From positions 1-23,210 of the IMG/VR virus record IMGVR_UViG_3300002460_000169: a stretch of 23,210 nt of DNA; one strand, written 5' to 3'. This document shows positions 1,306 through 22,944 of this stretch, piece after piece. The stretch's first letter is position 1, and each line of letters begins with the position of its first letter. A model generated the notes under the pieces. It saw nothing but the letters and a program-made list of their open reading frames with translations. It ran no database searches and had not been told where the DNA came from. A program made the translations under genes and the position numbers. The DNA is from a virus.

Positions 1306-3609
1306 TTATTGTTGCCCAAAGTCGTTATCTAACTTAAATGGGCCATTATGTTTGAATCCAGTCATATCAGTGGTAGGTTCAAAAGTTCCATTCATAAGTT
1401 CTTTAATAAGTTTATCTACAATTTCTGCTTTTTTCTTTGAGGGATAGTCTAACTTACCAGACATATAATTCATGTACTGGGTTCCTCTATAGGCATCGTA
1501 CTGGCTTGGTTCTGTAATTACTTGTTGTAGAGATACACCTTTTTGTTGAGCACGATTTACTATGGTTGAAAGAATATCTCGAGCTTCTTCTTCGTTGCCT
1601 GGACTACTTAACTCGCCAAATAAAGTACCTCCAACTCTGCGAGCCTCAAAACTAGATTGAGGTTTAATTACATTACTTGTTTCAGTTGGAATTTCTTCTT
1701 CTGATTGTTGGCTTCCAAATTGATTATTTAATCCAAGACCAATAGGAACAACTCCAAACGCCTCCACTGGCATTCTTCCTCTTTCTTTTGGAAGTTTAAT
1801 CTTCCAATACTCTCCTTGGCCTTCTTTAACTTTACCTTCAACATTCAATCCCATCTTCCTTGCTTCTCTTGGAATTGCTTCTTCATTGAGTTTATAGACG
1901 AAGTGTTTAGTATCTACTTTGCCAGAGATGTCAAAGGTTTCTTCTTGTGCAATATTCCTTACTCCTCTAGTAAATTCGTTGCCAAACTCCATACTTTCAT
2001 AGACGTCTTTCGGCACCGCCTTAAACTTCCCATCTCCGAGGATGTCGGTGATGATCCAAGTCTCTCCCCCTGTTCCTTGTTGAATTATCGGCTTACCTAC
2101 TTTCAGGTCTGCTTCGGCTAGTGAGCTACCAAGTGAAGTGACGTGTCCTGAATCACGCACGTTGTACCAATTCTCTCTACTTCCCAACCCCTCAATCTTC
2201 ATCGCTGTCTCTCCACTTGGAATGAGAATAGTATCTTTGCCATCTTTAGCCGCTCGTTTTACTTCTTCTCGGAAGGTGCGGAGTTGAGCGAGAGGGTCGT
2301 TGGAGGAGTATGGCTGTAGTTTAGAGAGTTCTTGTTCACGTCCTGCAAGTTCCTCACCAATCAGCTTGTTTTCTTTTGCTGTTCTTGGAATCACTGCCTC
2401 TTTCTTTCTCCGAGCAAGTTCAAACTGATGTTCAAAGTTCTCTTTTTGCATCAAATCACTCTGTGTTTCTAATATCTTCCTTGTCTTGCCATCTGCCATA
2501 TCTTCATAGCGGACATGGGAGAAGTAGTTGGGGAATGATTCTCCAGTTTTTATGTCTGGTCCATAAGAATCACTTAAAGTTCCTTTAAAATGCACATCAC
2601 CAGCACTTGTCTTAATCGGGCTTTGATAAACGATTTCACCATACTTGCCATCACCTATGAAATCTTGACCTACATTTGACCAGCGAGGAGATTTTACTGG
2701 AGTAGGAGTGAGAGGAACGAGTTGAGTTTCAACATCTTTGGCGAGTTTGGTGAGGTTGATTTTGCCTGAAGGTTTAATAAATCCTTTTTCTTGAACTATT
2801 ACTGAAACATCTTTAATCCCAAGTTCCTGATACGCTCTTAATCTGTGATGTCCATCAATTAAAACATATTTACCATCTCTAAATTCAACAACGAGAGGAG
2901 TTTTATCACCTTTTTTAATAGATTCTAAAACTCTTGCTTGGTCTCTGGGGTCAAATCTAATAGAAGTTGGTTTGATTAAATTAGCAGGAATATCTGAATA
3001 AACAAGTTTTTCATTTGGATATCTACTAATCAATTTATCAACCGCCATCTGAAATTCTTGTTTGCCCATAATGTCTGCTTCACCTTTCATAACTTTAGGT
3101 AAGTCTTTTAGAATCTCTTTAGTGTTTACATATTTTTGATTGTCAACTAATCCTACAACCAAATCTCTATCTGCTTGTCTAGTACCCTCTTTTGTTGCAC
3201 GATTCAGAACTTCATTAAATTGTTGAGGAGTTATTTCTTCTGCCATACCTCTGAACTTTTCAAGAAGCTTAGTGGAGAGATTTTTGAGACCAGAGAAGAC
3301 TTTGGGAGCAACCTTTGGTGCTACACTTTTAACAAATCCCCCAGCTCCTAACGGACTGGTAAAGTCTGCACCATGCTCCAAGACTCCTTGGGCAGAGCCA
3401 AACATTTTATCTAATTGACCTCCAATATCTTTGGCTGCTCCTTTTAAATCTCCTGTGATAAACTTAACACCTGGAGAATTAGCTACAGCTCTAAACGCAG
3501 GAGAAGGCTCACTCTTAATAAACAATGGCTCTTGTTTTTGTATGGGAGCATTCACCAATGGTTGATTAGTGAACAACGATTCTCCTAAATTGAAGCGATT
3601 GATAGCCAT
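1306..3609 (-). CDS. polyvalent virion protein: ParB-like domain, polyvalent-associated region and C-terminal SleB-like cell-wall hydrolase
   Basis: A 767-residue protein, probably packaged and injected. Residues 1-120 are low-complexity with a Gly/Ala segment. Residues about 200-272 look like a ParB/sulfiredoxin-type domain, with IDGHHRLRAYQELG at 251-264. Residues about 315-535 resemble a region of phage 'polyvalent' proteins: SHVRYEDM near 364, ETQSD at 381-385, EEVKRAAKDGK at 448-458 and GETAMKIEGLG at 466-476. Residues about 655-760 resemble SleB/CwlJ hydrolases (PF07486 type): FGEL with putative catalytic E666, then IVNR and SQYDAY. Polyvalent proteins are known as multi-domain effectors that enter the host with phage DNA. 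The gene follows three ejection-type genes and is followed one base later by the holin-like gene. No SD; the start has TAA just before ATG. The hydrolase could act in entry or in lysis. Confidence 0.7.
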   Translation of the reverse strand: MAINRFNLGESLFTNQPLVNAPIQKQEPLFIKSEPSPAFRAVANSPGVKFITGDLKGAAKDIGGQLDKMFGSAQGVLEHGADFTSPLGAGGFVKSVAPKVAPKVFSGLKNLSTKLLEKFRGMAEEITPQQFNEVLNRATKEGTRQADRDLVVGLVDNQKYVNTKEILKDLPKVMKGEADIMGKQEFQMAVDKLISRYPNEKLVYSDIPANLIKPTSIRFDPRDQARVLESIKKGDKTPLVVEFRDGKYVLIDGHHRLRAYQELGIKDVSVIVQEKGFIKPSGKINLTKLAKDVETQLVPLTPTPVKSPRWSNVGQDFIGDGKYGEIVYQSPIKTSAGDVHFKGTLSDSYGPDIKTGESFPNYFSHVRYEDMADGKTRKILETQSDLMQKENFEHQFELARRKKEAVIPRTAKENKLIGEELAGREQELSKLQPYSSNDPLAQLRTFREEVKRAAKDGKDTILIPSGETAMKIEGLGSRENWYNVRDSGHVTSLGSSLAEADLKVGKPIIQQGTGGETWIITDILGDGKFKAVPKDVYESMEFGNEFTRGVRNIAQEETFDISGKVDTKHFVYKLNEEAIPREARKMGLNVEGKVKEGQGEYWKIKLPKERGRMPVEAFGVVPIGLGLNNQFGSQQSEEEIPTETSNVIKPQSSFEARRVGGTLFGELSSPGNEEEARDILSTIVNRAQQKGVSLQQVITEPSQYDAYRGTQYMNYMSGKLDYPSKKKAEIVDKLIKELMNGTFEPTTDMTGFKHNGPFKLDNDFGQQ

Positions 3610-15184: not shown

Positions 15185-16183
15185 CTAGGCTGCGTTAGTG
15201 TTCTTAGATCCAACCCATCCTCGCGGATCGTTGTGTCCAAGATCGAATACAGTCGTAGCCTTGTACTGGATTTCACCAGTTTTGAATACCAAGTTTGGAC
15301 CTTCCAACTCGATACCCTGAGCCTCTTTGAATTGAAGTCCATTTCTGGAAGTCTTCATAGAGGAATCGAACATGAACCAATAGTTCGTGTTGGTAGTAAT
15401 CCAAGGCAATGCAACAATCTTGTAGACTGGCACTGCACCTGAATCATGATCAGCCGAACCAGGAATCCAACTCTTATTCAACGCTCCGAGGATTTCCACT
15501 GCTCTGTGATGAACAGCAGTTCCACGTGCACAAACGAATGTGTTGAGGTTGATATAAGTCGGCTTACCAGTCGGGTCTGTAACCAACGAAGCTGTACGAT
15601 GAGCTGCTTTCAACGCATCGTATTCAAAGTCCATGTTAACAGTCGTACCATCAGTTATTCGGTTGTTCCAAGCTGTTCCGCCATCCTCACGAGTGTGGGA
15701 ATTGCTAATGAAAGCAAGTCCGTCGCCACCAGTAGTCGGAATGCTGTAGTTGCCTGAAATGTCTGATGCAAGATAAGAGGTAGCAAATGCGTTGTCCAAA
15801 CGGTCAGCACATCGCAACTCCCTTAAATCGGAACAGGCTTTTCGAGCTTCTGCAGTCACAGACTCCAGTTTTCTCTTTTGGATACCAAACATCCAGACCA
15901 ACTTCGTAAATGACATCAAGACACCAAACTGAACTTGGGTGTAGGTCTTATCAAGACCCTGAACAGGTGAGGCAGCAGTAATCGCAGCATTTTCTACAAT
16001 GCGGCCAGCGTATCCGATACCAGTCAAGGAAGATTCCTTGGTGTAGTAGTCTTTAACGCCAGTTTCAACATTGAAGTAATCCTGGTACATTCGGCCTTCC
16101 GTTGAACTACCCTTCAGCCAGATATCTTGGATACTAACATCTACTAAATCTGCAGCATCCGATAATGATAATGGATTAGGCAT
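15185..16183 (-). CDS. major capsid protein
   Basis: A 332-residue protein, a normal size for an HK97-fold coat protein. The N-terminus is polar and helical (SLSDAADLVDVSIQDIWLKG), without an obvious delta domain or cleavage site. QFGVLMSFTKLVWMFGIQKR and the long helix that follows (KLESVTAEARKACSDLRELR, about 103-122) match the spine-helix style of coat proteins; the C-terminal part has the alternating beta pattern of the P and A domains (IELEGPNLVFKTGEIQYKAT). Context is decisive: it follows terminase, portal, scaffold and decoration-like genes in the standard order. There is no SD, although capsid proteins need high expression. The family is not identified beyond this. Confidence 0.8.
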   Translation of the reverse strand: MPNPLSLSDAADLVDVSIQDIWLKGSSTEGRMYQDYFNVETGVKDYYTKESSLTGIGYAGRIVENAAITAASPVQGLDKTYTQVQFGVLMSFTKLVWMFGIQKRKLESVTAEARKACSDLRELRCADRLDNAFATSYLASDISGNYSIPTTGGDGLAFISNSHTREDGGTAWNNRITDGTTVNMDFEYDALKAAHRTASLVTDPTGKPTYINLNTFVCARGTAVHHRAVEILGALNKSWIPGSADHDSGAVPVYKIVALPWITTNTNYWFMFDSSMKTSRNGLQFKEAQGIELEGPNLVFKTGEIQYKATTVFDLGHNDPRGWVGSKNTNAA

Positions 16184-16200
16184 AGATTAGGATAGTATTC

Positions 16201-16677
16201 TTATTGCCAAAACGCCTGGCCAGGATTGACCATTTGTCGTGGAGTTTTAAGAAACTCGCCGATTACTTTTGCACTACCCGTTGAGGCACCACTTATAGCA
16301 TAGCAGAAGAATACACCATTGATAGACAAAGTCTGATCATAGGAGGTATTTTCCACTGTTACACTGTCGTACAGTCGGAATCTTTTCATGAGCTGTGCTG
16401 TGTTAATAACATTCAACACATCACATTCCCACAACTGGCCAGGTACGAATGGGATCACTCGTACAAAGGAAGTAGGCTCGTTGACACCTTGGATATAATC
16501 CAAAGAAACGCCAACAATCGAGCTTCCAGTGGCAGAAGTAGTGGCAGAAACTGAAACATTGCCTGAGGAAACATCGAAGATAACTACAGAGTTAGGCTTG
16601 ATGACTCCGGAACCAGGCAAGTTAATAACTGCTGGCTCATGAACTGAACCTGCACTTCTAACTAATTTAATCGCCAT
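16201..16677 (-). CDS. head decoration-like protein preceding the capsid gene
   Basis: A 158-residue, mostly beta protein with GVSLDYIQGVNEPTSFVRVI, PFVPGQLWECDV, AQLMKRFRL and VIGEFLKTP. It starts one base after the scaffold stop (TAATATG) and ends 17 bases before the major capsid start. A small beta protein between scaffold and capsid genes is usually a head decoration or stabilisation protein that binds the shell after expansion. A paralogue lies at 7573-8031. No signal peptide or membrane span. The position is typical; the exact family is not recognised. Confidence 0.6.
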   Translation of the reverse strand: MAIKLVRSAGSVHEPAVINLPGSGVIKPNSVVIFDVSSGNVSVSATTSATGSSIVGVSLDYIQGVNEPTSFVRVIPFVPGQLWECDVLNVINTAQLMKRFRLYDSVTVENTSYDQTLSINGVFFCYAISGASTGSAKVIGEFLKTPRQMVNPGQAFWQ

Positions 16678-16678
16678 A

Positions 16679-17521
16679 TTATTCGGGTAATTTAGTTTCT
16701 AAGTTTTTGATTTCTTCTTCCGACCAGCCATGCATATGAGATCGAAGCAAGGAGCTAAGATGACTATTTACAGGCTTAGGAGAAGATCGTTGAGAACCAG
16801 TAGAGCCAGAACTAGCTACTTTAATTTGCTGTTGCTTGACTGCTACAGTCCCTCGATCATTAGGAGTTTTAACAATTTCCCTGTGGGCTTGCAAGAGAAC
16901 TTGGCTAATCAGACGAGGATCCTTTGGCATATTTATCCTAGGACTTCCATCTGGCCATTGAAATTGTCTCTGTAGAGCAGACCAATTTAGGTCATCAGGA
17001 TCGTTTTCAGGTTTATATTCAGGGAACTTTTCCAAAAAGTTGTTGATTTCTTCTTTCTTAACAACATCGTAGAACATTTGCTGAGCTTCAGATTTAGTTA
17101 ATAAACCTTTAGATCGAGCAACTTTTTCAATCAGACTTATATCATCTGGATGTAGGTCTGCGAGTTCATCATTAACTTCGTTAATCTGTTGACTAACTTG
17201 GTTAATTTCCTGCTGTTTCAGTTCTCTTCGCTGACCTTTGAGGTCAACAATTTGACGAAGCAACTTTTCTCTTTCTGATTGTAAACCAGATACTTGTTTT
17301 GTTAAGTTCCCAATATCACCACTCTCGTTTTCAAGAGCTGGTTTTTGTTCAGATTCCTCTGATTCCGCAGGAGGCTCGGCAGGAGTTTCCTTCTCCTCTA
17401 ATATTGGAGCATCGCTCGCAATATCTTCTTTTACCTCCTCTATTGATTCCTCTTGTACTTCCTCTTGAGTTGCCTCATCAGAAGTAAAGTCGGGAATTGC
17501 ACCAACTTTGTTTTCATTCAT
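16679..17521 (-). CDS. capsid scaffold protein (putative)
   Basis: A 280-residue protein. Residues 1-68 are extremely acidic with Pro (TQEEVQEESIEEVKEDIAS); 75-125 are a strongly charged coiled coil (KQVSGLQSEREKLLRQIVDL and beyond); 130-205 are helical; and the C-terminus is basic and Ser-rich (KQQQIKVASSGSTG) ending in a short helix. An acidic, coiled-coil, highly soluble protein between portal and capsid genes is the standard scaffold layout, where it organises the procapsid and then leaves. The ATG is preceded by a weak SD-like AAAAGAAG inside a structured leader (17522-17697), so its level is probably regulated. No protease active-site motif is visible. Confidence 0.7.
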   Translation of the reverse strand: MNENKVGAIPDFTSDEATQEEVQEESIEEVKEDIASDAPILEEKETPAEPPAESEESEQKPALENESGDIGNLTKQVSGLQSEREKLLRQIVDLKGQRRELKQQEINQVSQQINEVNDELADLHPDDISLIEKVARSKGLLTKSEAQQMFYDVVKKEEINNFLEKFPEYKPENDPDDLNWSALQRQFQWPDGSPRINMPKDPRLISQVLLQAHREIVKTPNDRGTVAVKQQQIKVASSGSTGSQRSSPKPVNSHLSSLLRSHMHGWSEEEIKNLETKLPE

Positions 17522-17562
17522 AGGGTTTGACTTCTTTTGATAACCCTGAAGAAGAACAGGGT
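17522..17562 (-). promoter_or_regulatory. alternative hairpins around the scaffold gene start
   Basis: On the minus strand ACCCTG (17557-17562) pairs with CAGGGT (17543-17548) around TTCTTCTT. Alternatively AGGGTT (17542-17547) pairs with AACCCT (17522-17527), placing the weak AAAAGAAG ribosome site in a 14-base loop immediately before ATG 17519-17521. The two stems share bases and exclude one another. The CTTCTT loop could also pair with AAGAAG of the ribosome site. Confidence 0.4.
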
Positions 17563-17571
17563 CTACTTATT

Positions 17572-17606
17572 AAAACAAAACTGAACCCATTTGGTGAGTT
17601 CAGTTT
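17572..17606 (-). terminator. intrinsic-terminator-like hairpin upstream of the scaffold gene
   Basis: AAACTGAAC (minus, 17606-17598) pairs perfectly with GTTCAGTTT (17586-17578), nine base pairs around an 11-base loop that can close further with CC/GG. It is followed at once by TGTTTTA, a U-rich tail. The tail TTTTGTTTTA also follows the palindrome at 18332-18352. The plus strand has no T-run. Confidence 0.55.
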
Positions 17607-17682
17607 GGTAGCTAAGGGAAGGAATCGCTAAAAACCTCCTTAGCTAGCCAATTGAACTAGCCAAACGCTTTAGCGATTCCTT
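17578..17682 (-). ncRNA. candidate attenuator-type structured leader
   Basis: Within the gap before the scaffold gene the minus strand can form competing structures. Stem 1: 17669-17682 with 17619-17632, a perfect 14 bp. Stem 2: 17638-17657 with 17598-17617, 18 bp in blocks of 9, 4 and 5. Terminator stem: 17598-17606 with 17578-17586. Stem 2 uses the whole 5' arm of the terminator, so it is an antiterminator by geometry. Stems 1 and 2 interleave with only one base between their 3' arms, so they cannot both form fully. It matches no riboswitch or leader I recognise. Confidence 0.5.
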
Positions 17683-17697
17683 ATTAGTTGTTAACTT

Positions 17698-17814
17698 CTA
17701 CTTCTTTTTCTTTACCATTCCACTATCAGACATGACATACTTCGATGCTGCTTTCCCTTTCTTTGTGTACGGAAACTTCTTAACCTTGCCTGATTTTGTT
17801 TCAACTTTTGGCAT
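17698..17814 (-). CDS. 38-residue basic protein
   Basis: A short frame of 38 codons with 13 Lys, starting MPKVETKSGKVKKFPYTKKG, then KAASKYVMSDSGMVKKKK. The KKFPYTKKGKAA phrase resembles tiny basic proteins found near portal and capsid genes in many environmental phages. The start overlaps the upstream stop as TAATG. It is the last gene before the structured leader. It could bind packaged DNA or the acidic scaffold; this is inference. No SD. Confidence 0.6.
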   Translation of the reverse strand: MPKVETKSGKVKKFPYTKKGKAASKYVMSDSGMVKKKK

Positions 17815-18869: not shown

Positions 18870-19089
18870 TGCTCAATTTTATTAGTTCTTGGAAGAATTC
18901 TTGAACTCCTTTCGCTTTACCTTGTTGAACCAACATTTTGCTTACTGTAGCCCATTCTGTATCCTCTAAACTGGTATCGCTCTTGAATTGTTGAATAATC
19001 ATCTCAGCAACTCTTTCGAATGTAGTCCATTGCGGCGAATGGATTATGTTCCTAATCTGATCCTTTTCCAGCTTTGTTAAAAGGTTCAT
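18856..19089 (-). CDS. small helical protein downstream of the portal gene
   Basis: A 77-residue helical protein (KLEKDQIRNIIHSPQWTTFE, AEMIIQQFKSD, GVQEFFQELIKLS). The 'helix - SPxW - helix ... FFxEL' layout resembles short proteins next to portal genes in other environmental podoviruses, with no assigned function. The start overlaps the portal stop as ATGA, indicating coupled translation, and the 3' end hosts the start of the 31-residue membrane peptide. No SD. Confidence 0.6.
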   Translation of the reverse strand: MNLLTKLEKDQIRNIIHSPQWTTFERVAEMIIQQFKSDTSLEDTEWATVSKMLVQQGKAKGVQEFFQELIKLSNDKE

Positions 19090-21233
19090 CTAAAGCCCTG
19101 GCTTAGCCTACTTACAATTCGTTGGGCTATTCCTTGTGGCCGCTCAGGCATACCCGTGCTACTTACCATCGTTTCAGCTTCGGGAGCAGCCATATCGGGA
19201 ACCTCTGCAGGAACCCCTCCAGGAGTGCCAGAAGCTCCTCCAACGCCTTCAGCTGGAAGGAATAGAGGTGGCTGAGGCTGTGGCTGTTGTTGCTGTTCTG
19301 CAGGATCCTGGTTCCAATTATCAGGTAGAATATCTCTCGGATCCTTGTCATAGAGCTTAACTAGAGCCTTGGCTACCTTGCCATATACCATTGGCCCAAT
19401 ATCTTGTCCAGTCATAGGATCAGGCCGAGGAGCAATAAGAGGAATAAGCATATTGTACATCTCCAAGTCTAGAGCTTTCTCTACCTGCTTAGAGGAAGTC
19501 AGCACTGATTGGGACTTCACATTGATAATACCCTCCCAGTTCAAAGACTCTGGCTTGACTCTAAAGAACTGAGTTTCTTGTGTTTCAATCAGGTTGCCTT
19601 TTTCATCTTTATCTAAATTGAGTGGGAACTCAGGGAATACTTTGGCTTTGAATATATCCTTAGCTACACCATTCTCATCTGTTTGTACGGTTCGTTCGTA
19701 GAGCTGAGGATCAGAGTCTATCTCCTTTAGATAGTCGTCAATCAGGGCAGGATCTACAATCTCATAGACTTCAGGCACGGAATATAAGAGCTGGGATAGA
19801 GCTACTGTGATATAGGCTTCCGTGTTCAAGGCATCAGTAATGTTCTCTAACGGATTCTTTAATCTCTTTAGAGCAGCCTCTTTAGCTTGAGCTATCTCAA
19901 ATGCTGTCTTACCGGTAATAGTACCAAGCAAGGGTTCAGTAATACCTGAGGCCTCATCCATGTCCTTCTTGAATCTATCGAGTCCTTCCCAGGCTTCTGC
20001 TCCAGGCCCAGGAACTTGGAGCCAGTTGATGTTCTTAGGATCTAATACCTGTTTACCTACACCTGGCGTAATCTTGATATCTCCAGTTTCACTAAGACTC
20101 TGTGTTCCTTGATAGAAGAACATCTTATAGATCGAGATAACCAATTGGTCAATGGTCATGTTTCTAACCTTGTCTATAAGGTTATTGTCATAACGCATGG
20201 CTTCATAGATACCGATACCGTAGGGGCAATTACCACTCCTAAGATTCCAATAGGTCTGCCAGAGCGAGAGCTTCTTTAAGCCATGAGCATCTGAAATAGG
20301 CAGAGGAGTCAAGACTACAGGCACGCCATTGGCTATTACCAGGAACAGGTCTTTCAGTTTGTTCTCGTAGAAGTATACCTCAACCAAGTCAGATTCTCTG
20401 TAGGTCTTTTCTTCAGTTGTTCCTTTGCTACCAGTTAGGCGGTCTGAAGTAATGCCACCTGGCTGTACTAGAGGAGTCAGCTTCCAGTTTGCGAACTCTT
20501 CTTTGAAGGCATCTAAGGCATAGACCTTACGCCAGCACCAATCTCGCATAGAGAACTGGTTGTTGGGCAATGCCATGTCATCTATCCAGACATTCCAGGG
20601 ATCTAGGTTCTCACGGAAGATATCGTTAAACTCCACCACTTCCTTCTCTTCATATATAGACTTGTCAGGTTCGAGCTGATTGAACTCAACAAGATTGTTG
20701 ACTTTTCTGCTTATTCGAAGAGGATAGGTTCGAGCACAGGCCCAGCCATACTTGGCTAGATTGAATACGAATAACTTGAGCTGTTGCTTACTCTTAGCAG
20801 TTTCCCAACTACGCTTGTAGAGCTGACGCATTAGTTCACTCGTAGCCTGGAACTTCTTAGAGGTAGCAGAGAATACACCCTCTGGATTCTGGTCAATCAG
20901 AGTAGCTAGAGCTATCTGGATCTTAACATATGGATTAGGTTGAGCGATATCAGACTGCCAGTTGGTTTCACCCAAGTTAACCATCTGCCCTCTCCAGCCT
21001 TTGTCTTCATCTGTAACAAGAACCTTCTTGCCTTTGCCTTTTAGTCTATGTGGTATGTAATCTCTATCAGCATCAGACCAGATGCTCTCCATATTGTAGC
21101 CATACTGTTCAGTTCTAGCTTCCTGGAGTTTAGTTATTCGCTGCTTGACGAATTCAAAATCCTTACGCTGTTGTTCGTTAAGGTCTTTTACTTCGCTAAA
21201 CACTCTAACTGCCTTTTTTTCTTGTTCAGGCAT
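19086..21233 (-). CDS. portal protein (P22 gp1-size)
   Basis: A 715-residue protein, close to the 725 residues of P22 gp1. Its polar helical N-terminus contains WSDADRDYIPHRLKGKGKKV. Residues 90-110 (NWQSDIAQPNPYVKIQIALA), DPWNVWIDDMALPN near 211-224 and PYGIGIYEAMRYDNNLIDKV near 337-356 match the wing and stem regions of large podovirus portals; KTAFEIAQAKEAALKRLKNP near 455-475 is the usual late helix. The last 75 residues are Gln- and Pro-rich. The portal forms the dodecameric vertex through which terminase pumps DNA. It follows the terminase after 66 bases with a palindromic element and overlaps the next gene by four bases. No SD. Confidence 0.85.
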   Translation of the reverse strand: MPEQEKKAVRVFSEVKDLNEQQRKDFEFVKQRITKLQEARTEQYGYNMESIWSDADRDYIPHRLKGKGKKVLVTDEDKGWRGQMVNLGETNWQSDIAQPNPYVKIQIALATLIDQNPEGVFSATSKKFQATSELMRQLYKRSWETAKSKQQLKLFVFNLAKYGWACARTYPLRISRKVNNLVEFNQLEPDKSIYEEKEVVEFNDIFRENLDPWNVWIDDMALPNNQFSMRDWCWRKVYALDAFKEEFANWKLTPLVQPGGITSDRLTGSKGTTEEKTYRESDLVEVYFYENKLKDLFLVIANGVPVVLTPLPISDAHGLKKLSLWQTYWNLRSGNCPYGIGIYEAMRYDNNLIDKVRNMTIDQLVISIYKMFFYQGTQSLSETGDIKITPGVGKQVLDPKNINWLQVPGPGAEAWEGLDRFKKDMDEASGITEPLLGTITGKTAFEIAQAKEAALKRLKNPLENITDALNTEAYITVALSQLLYSVPEVYEIVDPALIDDYLKEIDSDPQLYERTVQTDENGVAKDIFKAKVFPEFPLNLDKDEKGNLIETQETQFFRVKPESLNWEGIINVKSQSVLTSSKQVEKALDLEMYNMLIPLIAPRPDPMTGQDIGPMVYGKVAKALVKLYDKDPRDILPDNWNQDPAEQQQQPQPQPPLFLPAEGVGGASGTPGGVPAEVPDMAAPEAETMVSSTGMPERPQGIAQRIVSRLSQGFR

Positions 21234-21278: not shown

Positions 21279-21301
21279 TAAAACACAAAGTTGATAACTT
21301 T
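21279..21301 (-). terminator. post-stop palindrome after the terminase gene
   Basis: The terminase TAA (21300-21302) runs into AAAGTT-ATC-AACTTT, a 6-bp stem with a 3-base loop, followed by GTGTTTTAG. The palindrome and tail nearly repeat the element at 18332-18352. It may be a weak terminator or another kind of signal; a regulatory palindrome ahead of the portal gene is possible. Confidence 0.4.
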
Positions 21302-22703
21302 AATCAAATAGCAGATGCGGTAATCGTTGTGATTCATCTCTAGCTTCCTTCAACTTACGCTCTAAATCAGATAAAGGCTTCAAGGAAGATCTCTCATGTA
21401 GACTCATAAGCATGTATCTATCAGCATCAGCAGCATGGTCTTCGCCATCTGTATCTACATCTTCAGGTCTATGCTCATCGTGGATTAAGGCAGGAATAGT
21501 TCTAATTGAATTGAAGCAGGTGCTAAAGTATGTGAGCTTAGGTTTCTTATGCTCATCCCACCTTAGATATTGATGCATTAGATTCCATCCATCAACTCGT
21601 CTATTGGAAGCAGGAAGGAATACTATGCCATAATGAGCAAAGGTCTCAGCTATCGTTTGGCCACCATACTTATCTACATATCCTATGTTGGCAAATATAG
21701 ATGGATCAGCTACTGAATACTCATAAGACTCTCCTTTAGACAAATCACCTATTTCAGCAGCTAGTTGATCTACATTCATTCCACGCTTGTAAAGTTCTCT
21801 ATACTTATACACCTTGCCATCGTAGTCTAAGGCATACCAAGAACAACAGGCTGGATTCTCTCTACCATGGTCGTATGCTCTAAACCTTTTCCAACTGCTG
21901 GGTATCTCAAATGGCTGTACGATATGCACATCCTTATCCCACTCACCGAAGTACTGGCCTTCAAAGACATCCCAATTACCATCTCTGTATGCCTTCCTGA
22001 GCTTCTCTGGCAAGGAACCTAGAGTGTTGTAATAGCTATCAGGGAGATGTTTATTGTCTTGCGGTAATGCCTTAATGAAGTGGAACTGTTCCCGTTCAGT
22101 TTCTTCTGATGGAAAGTTTCGTTCGATCCATAGTTGCTTGACCCAGTCATGACCGATACCTCCAGGATTAGAAGCAGCTATGAACTTAGTATGCTCAATT
22201 CCAGGCCAGCGTTTTCTAAGTCTTAGGAAGTCAAAGGTTTCTTTTGGATTCTTAGTTAGCTCATCTACCTCAATAAGAGCAAACTCTGAAGATAGATATT
22301 TTGAAGGATCATCTAGGTTTCTGAAAGCAATAACACCACCACCGAATGACTCTTTCAATCTGTATTCGTGGCTTCCACCATTGTAATCTCCCAACCAACT
22401 TGGGAACTCATAAGCTATACGAGATAGATGTCTATCGTGTAGAGCTGGATAGTCTTCACAGAATAGGCCACAACGAATGCCTTTTACACCTGTCTTATGC
22501 CAAGTTTCAATTAGGAACTTAATTGGATACTTCCGAAGGAAATAAGACTTACCTGGCCCAGCAGCTCCACCATAAAATACATAGTCATACTTCTCTACTG
22601 CTTCTTCGGCATCCTTTTGTTTTCTATATATGACTCCACCTTTTTCGTATTCAAAGTTAGACCATTGCCTCCACCAATCAGACCAGTTTAGCTGTTTCTT
22701 CAT
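21300..22703 (-). CDS. terL: terminase large subunit
   Basis: A 467-residue DNA-packaging motor and nuclease. Walker A is GGAAGPGKS at 45-53; Walker B is FALIEVDEL at 141-149 with Asp147 and Glu148; motif III is IAASNPGG near 175-182. The nuclease domain has Asp278 (RAYDHGRENP), Asp333 (VADPS) and the terminal DGEDHAADADRY near 419-430. The ATPase drives DNA through the portal and the RNase-H-like domain cuts the concatemer. I chose ATG 22701-22703 (after AAAAAAGAAG) over a TTG seven codons earlier; it overlaps the small terminase gene by 26 bases. It is the best anchored gene here. Confidence 0.95.
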   Translation of the reverse strand: MKKQLNWSDWWRQWSNFEYEKGGVIYRKQKDAEEAVEKYDYVFYGGAAGPGKSYFLRKYPIKFLIETWHKTGVKGIRCGLFCEDYPALHDRHLSRIAYEFPSWLGDYNGGSHEYRLKESFGGGVIAFRNLDDPSKYLSSEFALIEVDELTKNPKETFDFLRLRKRWPGIEHTKFIAASNPGGIGHDWVKQLWIERNFPSEETEREQFHFIKALPQDNKHLPDSYYNTLGSLPEKLRKAYRDGNWDVFEGQYFGEWDKDVHIVQPFEIPSSWKRFRAYDHGRENPACCSWYALDYDGKVYKYRELYKRGMNVDQLAAEIGDLSKGESYEYSVADPSIFANIGYVDKYGGQTIAETFAHYGIVFLPASNRRVDGWNLMHQYLRWDEHKKPKLTYFSTCFNSIRTIPALIHDEHRPEDVDTDGEDHAADADRYMLMSLHERSSLKPLSDLERKLKEARDESQRLPHLLFD

Positions 22704-22944
22704 CTTCTTTTTTCTTATCTTCAAACAGAAACTCTAATCCCTCATGCCTAACTGTCTCAGCTGGCTTGCCAATGAATTGGTCTAATAAGTATTCAGGACG
22801 AGCCTTCTTAATCTTATCTAGGAACATCTTAGACATCTCTGCATCAAAGATAGCTCTACGCTCTTCCATGGCAAGAGTCTTTTTTCCTTTGGCTCCATCT
22901 GGTCTTCCATTAGGATTACCTGATTTTCCTTTTACAAATGTCAT
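22678..22944 (-). CDS. small terminase-like / DUF5681-type protein
   Basis: An 88-residue protein. The N-terminus, FVKGKSGNPNGRPDGAKGKK, is the 'KGxSGNPxGRPxG' motif of DUF5681 proteins, which lie beside large terminase genes in many phages. A charged helical part follows (EERRAIFDAEMSKMFLDKIK), then an acidic tail. It may recognise DNA for packaging, as small terminase subunits do, although it is short for one. The 3' end overlaps the large terminase start. The start has AT-rich leader sequence and no SD. Confidence 0.65.
   Translation of the reverse strand: MTFVKGKSGNPNGRPDGAKGKKTLAMEERRAIFDAEMSKMFLDKIKKARPEYLLDQFIGKPAETVRHEGLEFLFEDKKKEDEETAKLV

Follow-up and report, generated by a model that had tools for sequence, protein, structure and literature searches.

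A candidate transcription attenuator in the leader of the scaffold and capsid genes in a clade of uncultured tailed phages

Why should the short gap between the portal-side genes and the head genes of a tailed phage be filled with RNA strands that can pair with one another in more than one way? The question is raised by a 23,210-base virus fragment from IMG/VR (IMGVR_UViG_3300002460_000169, the whole of which is here called the window), which carries all of its long genes on the minus strand; the features described below lie on that strand. The terminase large subunit (21300-22724) and the portal (19086-21233) are encoded upstream of the RNA element, and between the portal gene and a 38-aa lysine-rich ORF (17698-17814) lie several small genes. 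The first gene past the element (16679-17521) encodes an acidic coiled-coil protein that is conserved ahead of the capsid gene, and is called scaffold-like here from its position and acidic coiled-coil character only. A small gene (16201-16677) separates it from the gene for the major capsid protein (15185-16183), which has the HK97 fold. The capsid assignment is solid, as Pfam family Phage_capsid_4 is matched in 25 of 53 capsid relatives and an AlphaFold model from 53 sequences (pLDDT 86.6) matches HK97-fold phage capsids with E values down to 7e-11. The first-pass annotation of this DNA had placed the element between the portal and the scaffold and capsid genes, and this placement holds. The structural gene cluster has at its far end a gene (1306-3609) for a 767-aa protein with a short ParB-like domain at about residues 206-275.

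The element consists of three helices that are mutually exclusive in the manner of an attenuator. The first to be transcribed, the anti-antiterminator stem P1, pairs 17668-17682 with 17619-17633 in a 15-bp stem of 14 perfect pairs and one G.U, and contains the perfect 14-bp stem claimed earlier for 17669-17682 and 17619-17632. Strand X (17638-17665) lies within P1, where it can form a small hairpin on itself; alternatively it pairs with strand X' (17590-17617), which is made up of a spacer and the terminator's 5' arm and loop. This antiterminator helix, X:X', is 28 nt long with 82% complementarity and takes in all of that arm and loop. It had been described as an 18-bp stem (17638-17657 with 17598-17617), which is present but imperfect, having an A.C mismatch and bulges, and which extends to the full 28 nt. 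The terminator hairpin T (17578-17606, arms 17595-17606 and 17578-17589) has a loop of CCAAA, and its 3' arm is followed by UGUUUUAAU, with a U-rich tail UGUUUUAAUA at 17568-17577; hairpin and tail had both been recognised, with a stem of 9 bp that we find to be 12 bp. Between the 3' arms of P1 and X:X' there is a single base, 17618, as the first-pass annotation had stated, and the two helices interleave. The features by which an attenuator is defined, namely a terminator with a U-tract, a helix that uses the terminator 5' arm and a third helix that excludes the antiterminator, are all found in the window. The whole 23-kb window holds only four inverted repeats (at least 12 nt, within 100 nt), and three of them are these helices. 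A tRNA-like reading, suggested by GUUCAAUU, was discarded when a tRNA search found none.

The minus-strand RNA of 17560-17700 has a minimum free energy of -48.4 against -28.8 for shuffled sequences (z -5.4), and it lies below all 200 shuffles, so that the shuffled control proposed with the first-pass annotation falls in its favour; on the plus strand z is only -3.05. When the P1 5' arm is left out, the predicted fold is the long X:X' helix with the terminator absent (-34.9, z -4.8), and the X:X' duplex of the window, at -24.6 kcal/mol (z -4.0), is better than 999 of 1000 duplexes made from a shuffled inner segment. In an ensemble calculation the probability of the terminator falls from 0.95 in the free RNA to 0.06 when the P1 5' arm is blocked. 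Before the terminator 3' arm has been made, P1 and X:X' are near balance, at 1.3 kcal/mol, and once the RNA is complete termination is strongly favoured, suggesting that the default state of the window is off.

Relatives were gathered by capsid and portal scans of viral contigs, which gave 155 loci, or 91 after dereplication at 90%. As several of the gaps before the scaffold gene, when read by eye, turned out to share this layout while having unrelated letters, we wrote a detector for a terminator, an upstream stem and a duplex of the loop of that stem with the spacer and the terminator 5' arm. The architecture P1-X-P1'-X'-T (score -38 or better) was found in 34 of the 91 loci, the window included, essentially always directly before the scaffold-like gene and with almost no shared sequence; elsewhere in 938 kb the detector made three coding-strand matches and 11 on the opposite strand. 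Because it takes the best combination per locus, its scores are optimistic, and a fair judgement comes from the tests by shuffling, by swapping and for specificity. With a relaxed detector L075 and L092 are also picked up, and two further loci (L089 and L140) are similar by eye. The attenuator is absent from over half of the loci, and in the capsid tree it is scattered over the whole clade and mixed with loci that do not have it, among them L117, the sister and nearest capsid relative of the window; this distribution agrees with an old element, quick to change in sequence, that has repeatedly been lost or replaced. In L124 (1731-1856) and L117 (1763-1909) the detector also found the same architecture some 10 kb upstream of the capsid gene, with overlapping matches on both strands, and these distant copies may be either a further switch or a bidirectional terminator.

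Several tests point to selection on the pairing itself. X:X' is better than dinucleotide-shuffled inner loops in all 34 loci (z -3.6 to -9.4), and none of 340 shuffles of the whole region reaches the observed score. With its own partners X:X' has an energy of -30.3 kcal/mol, against -12.6 kcal/mol with partners swapped between loci; a locus's own X is the best partner in 31 of the 34, and that of the window ranks first of 34. Between L072 and L123 (69% identity), P1, X:X' and T each show two compensatory double changes, the kind of covariation that the first-pass annotation had proposed to look for, while L044 and L041 (80%) differ by two compensatory changes in X:X', yet have three broken P1 pairs. 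Compensatory changes on reliable alignments are few, and the pair counts were made on pairwise alignments; a four-element MAFFT alignment misplaced the X' arm by one base. The earlier reading as terminator, antiterminator and anti-antiterminator is thus borne out by homologues that keep the three helices with different sequences and by shuffles that fold worse. A simpler account would be a plain intrinsic terminator with an mRNA-stabilising hairpin, X:X' being the idle by-product of an old inverted duplication; T and P1 alone do explain part of the structure, and one locus (L040) has only a simple terminator-like hairpin. We think this distinctly improbable, since an idle duplication would decay, whereas 34 loci retain X:X' in different letters, with compensatory changes and with a pairing to its own partner far above that with swapped ones.

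The same data bear on whether the repeats act as DNA. Large inverted repeats within a head module could be a cruciform or a recombination or packaging signal, but the T-run is always 3' on the coding strand, the fold of that strand is the more significant, and a cruciform has no use for mutually exclusive arms. A neutral alignment of X against X' gave 66 isolated G.U pairs and 27 A.C mismatches, and it is therefore the coding-strand RNA, not the DNA, that appears to be under selection. A site acting at the DNA level is accordingly extremely unlikely.

We consider it probable that the element is a transcription attenuator, forming the leader of the scaffold/capsid operon in a clade of uncultured tailed phages. 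Because the two-way design persists in dozens of distant relatives whose letters are completely different, it is, judged from sequence, very likely a real on/off switch for the making of capsids. From this well-supported structure we infer a mechanism in which P1 would fold first as RNA polymerase passes and would hold X in a local hairpin; the terminator 5' arm would then be free, T would form, and transcription would end before the scaffold gene, which would be the default off state. If the P1 5' arm were blocked, or if a slow polymerase let X' displace P1, X:X' would form and take up the terminator 5' arm, so that T could not form and the scaffold, capsid and downstream genes would be transcribed.

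The mean energies of the two states over the 34 loci are nearly equal (-38.6 and -38.0 kcal/mol). Before the terminator 3' arm exists, 30 of the 34 have an X:X' helix more stable than P1, but P1 is transcribed first, so the outcome should be decided by folding kinetics, by the speed or pausing of the polymerase, or by a factor that blocks P1. A clean predicted switch on blocking P1 (a drop of more than 0.3) is seen in only 7 of the 34. Equilibrium folding cannot tell which state wins during transcription, and in many loci it favours the antiterminator even in the free RNA; kinetics must therefore matter.

A different use of the terminated transcript can also be envisaged, in which transcription normally ends at T and releases a stable small RNA of about 100-230 nt that acts in trans, for example by pairing its X with X' of a read-through mRNA. 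The RNA is indeed compact and structured with a terminator at its end, promoter-like sites lie just upstream in L017, L018 and L056, and there are precedents in the lambda tR'-terminated leader RNA and in Salmonella IsrK, a terminated RNA of Gifsy-1 that acts on its own read-through transcript (PMC4825925). We nevertheless rate this as unlikely. The conserved sequence needed for a target or partner in trans is absent, and X' sits in the same transcript as X. Moreover, in compact loci such as L080 the terminator is followed by the next hairpin after only about a dozen bases, which leaves no space for another promoter before the scaffold gene, and transcription of the scaffold and capsid genes should therefore have to pass the terminator.

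If the element is an attenuator, something would have to choose between its stems. One candidate is the ribosome, with translation of the upstream small ORF (38 aa in the window) picking the stem as in trp-type attenuation. The stop codon of the upstream ORF does lie 10-22 nt ahead of P1 in 16 of the 20 loci with a called ORF, but this distance is explained by compact gene spacing. The upstream ORFs vary by locus, many are ordinary genes of more than 100 codons, and several leaders are without such an ORF. P1 also lies outside the ORF, beginning 15 nt past the stop codon in the window, so that a ribosome does not run into the P1 5' arm, and we regard control by the ribosome as very unlikely. 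The lysine-rich small proteins (38-109 aa) encoded upstream of the scaffold gene in 20 loci, including the window, have in common a C-terminal tag like TSDGYMK and are otherwise dissimilar, with sometimes three in tandem (L037); the tag is possibly one for packaging or scaffold binding.

In the attenuator proposed here, the P1 blocker may be a NusB/S10-type antitermination complex in those relatives with a boxA-like motif, and would otherwise be a phage factor. The motif TTCTTTAACAATT is enriched just upstream of P1 over the 34 loci (mean match 7.91 of 11 versus 6.70, sd 0.14), and 12-13 of 13 positions match in L017, L019, L050, L088 and L113, with all 13 in L050. For some members a Nus-type trigger is plausible, by analogy, as Nus/SuhB complexes that are bound to boxA have been shown to suppress intrinsic termination in vitro (PMC6614801). 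The best boxA match in the window leader is 9 of 13, which is reached by 53 of 100 shuffles and does not lie upstream of P1, and boxA was dropped as a part of the window's own element. The likeness to rrn boxA and lambda nut lies in the boxA-like motif that precedes a hairpin in some of the relatives; the window is without an evident boxA, and the structure here has its own terminator and antiterminator. The leaders of the clade formed by L017, L018, L050 and L088 have a boxA-like sequence, a long hairpin and the pseudoknot described below, without a terminator, and promoter-like sites lie upstream in the terminator-less leaders of L017, L018 and L050, an rrn-leader-like arrangement before head genes.

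Attenuators of the pT181 type, which are controlled by antisense RNA, also use an upstream arm that pre-empts the terminator 5' arm, as the element here does. In the window no promoter-like site reading antisense into the element was found, the scan being for sigma70-like sites on the plus strand just before 17578, and the host may use promoters of another type. Antisense control was rated low.

Messages that read through the terminator would meet a second check at the ribosome-binding site of the scaffold gene. An H-type pseudoknot (17531-17563), absent from the first-pass annotation, sits between the terminator and the scaffold ATG, just ahead of the latter, with stem 1 formed by 17557-17563 and 17542-17548 and stem 2 by 17549-17554 and 17531-17536. 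Its layout is a hairpin of 4-7 bp whose loop pairs with the ribosome-binding region, which is thereby held within stem 2. The best pseudoknot in the window scores -13.5 against a shuffle mean of -3.6, with none of 20 shuffles as good, and a pseudoknot better than at least 19 of 20 shuffles is found at 61% of the 79 scaffold starts that were assigned, versus 19% of 756 starts of other ORFs. In 33 loci with the standard geometry, which were selected for pairing, loop and partner covary (CUUC/GAAG, CUCC/GGAG, CGCC/GGCG, CUGC/GCAG and CUCUA/UAGAG), and when the partners are permuted 8 of the 33 still pair on average and at most 14. As it is present both with and without the attenuator, the pseudoknot is the more widespread part of the leader. 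An H-type pseudoknot near the start codon and ribosome-binding site is also found in the leader of T4 gene 32, where it is the operator for autogenous repression, lying 5' of the Shine-Dalgarno sequence and nucleating the binding of gp32 (PMC535899); here, in contrast, the ribosome-binding region is itself a part of stem 2, and the gene that follows is scaffold-like.

Among known systems, the element is like trp-type leaders, T-boxes and riboswitch platforms in that terminator, antiterminator and anti-antiterminator share arms in a leader before an operon. It differs from these in having no leader peptide over the first arm and no conserved aptamer or T-box sequence, in lying before phage head genes, and in that P1 encloses X, so that the antiterminator and P1 interleave. 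As in the late leader of lambda (pR'/tR' and Q), a terminator ahead of late genes must be passed, but in lambda the protein Q is loaded through a DNA element (PMC4825925, PMC7171158), whereas here the RNA is a self-complementary switch. The first-pass annotation had recognised no known leader, and in agreement with this the Rfam covariance models gave no match at the gathering threshold, the best permissive match reaching 22.2 bits where the cut-off is 55. No description of an attenuator ahead of phage head genes was found in the literature searched, which covered few subscription papers. Comparison of the element with phages by blastn gave one chance match of 35 bases only, two scans of genome contigs found no host or prophage relative, and the portal and a second capsid had no match in INPHARED. 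The closest cultured phages to the window capsid are of the Caulobacter type, at 22% only, and no close cultured relative was found.

Taken with the pseudoknot as a second gate, we lean towards the view that the element represents an undescribed family of RNA switches, conserved in structure with almost no conserved sequence, that controls head-protein synthesis in a large clade of uncultured phages, the two layers of the leader together timing capsid production. The timing of phage late genes is usually credited to protein factors; in these phages a device of RNA, acting in cis, appears to be the gate to the capsid operon. About 40% of the loci in a deep clade have the attenuator, and its logic has been kept while nearly all of its letters have changed, so that sequence-based RNA searches would miss such elements; a search for a stem, an interleaved helix and a terminator could find further ones. 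The proposed mechanism is directly testable, and it would offer an account of when phages begin to build their heads.
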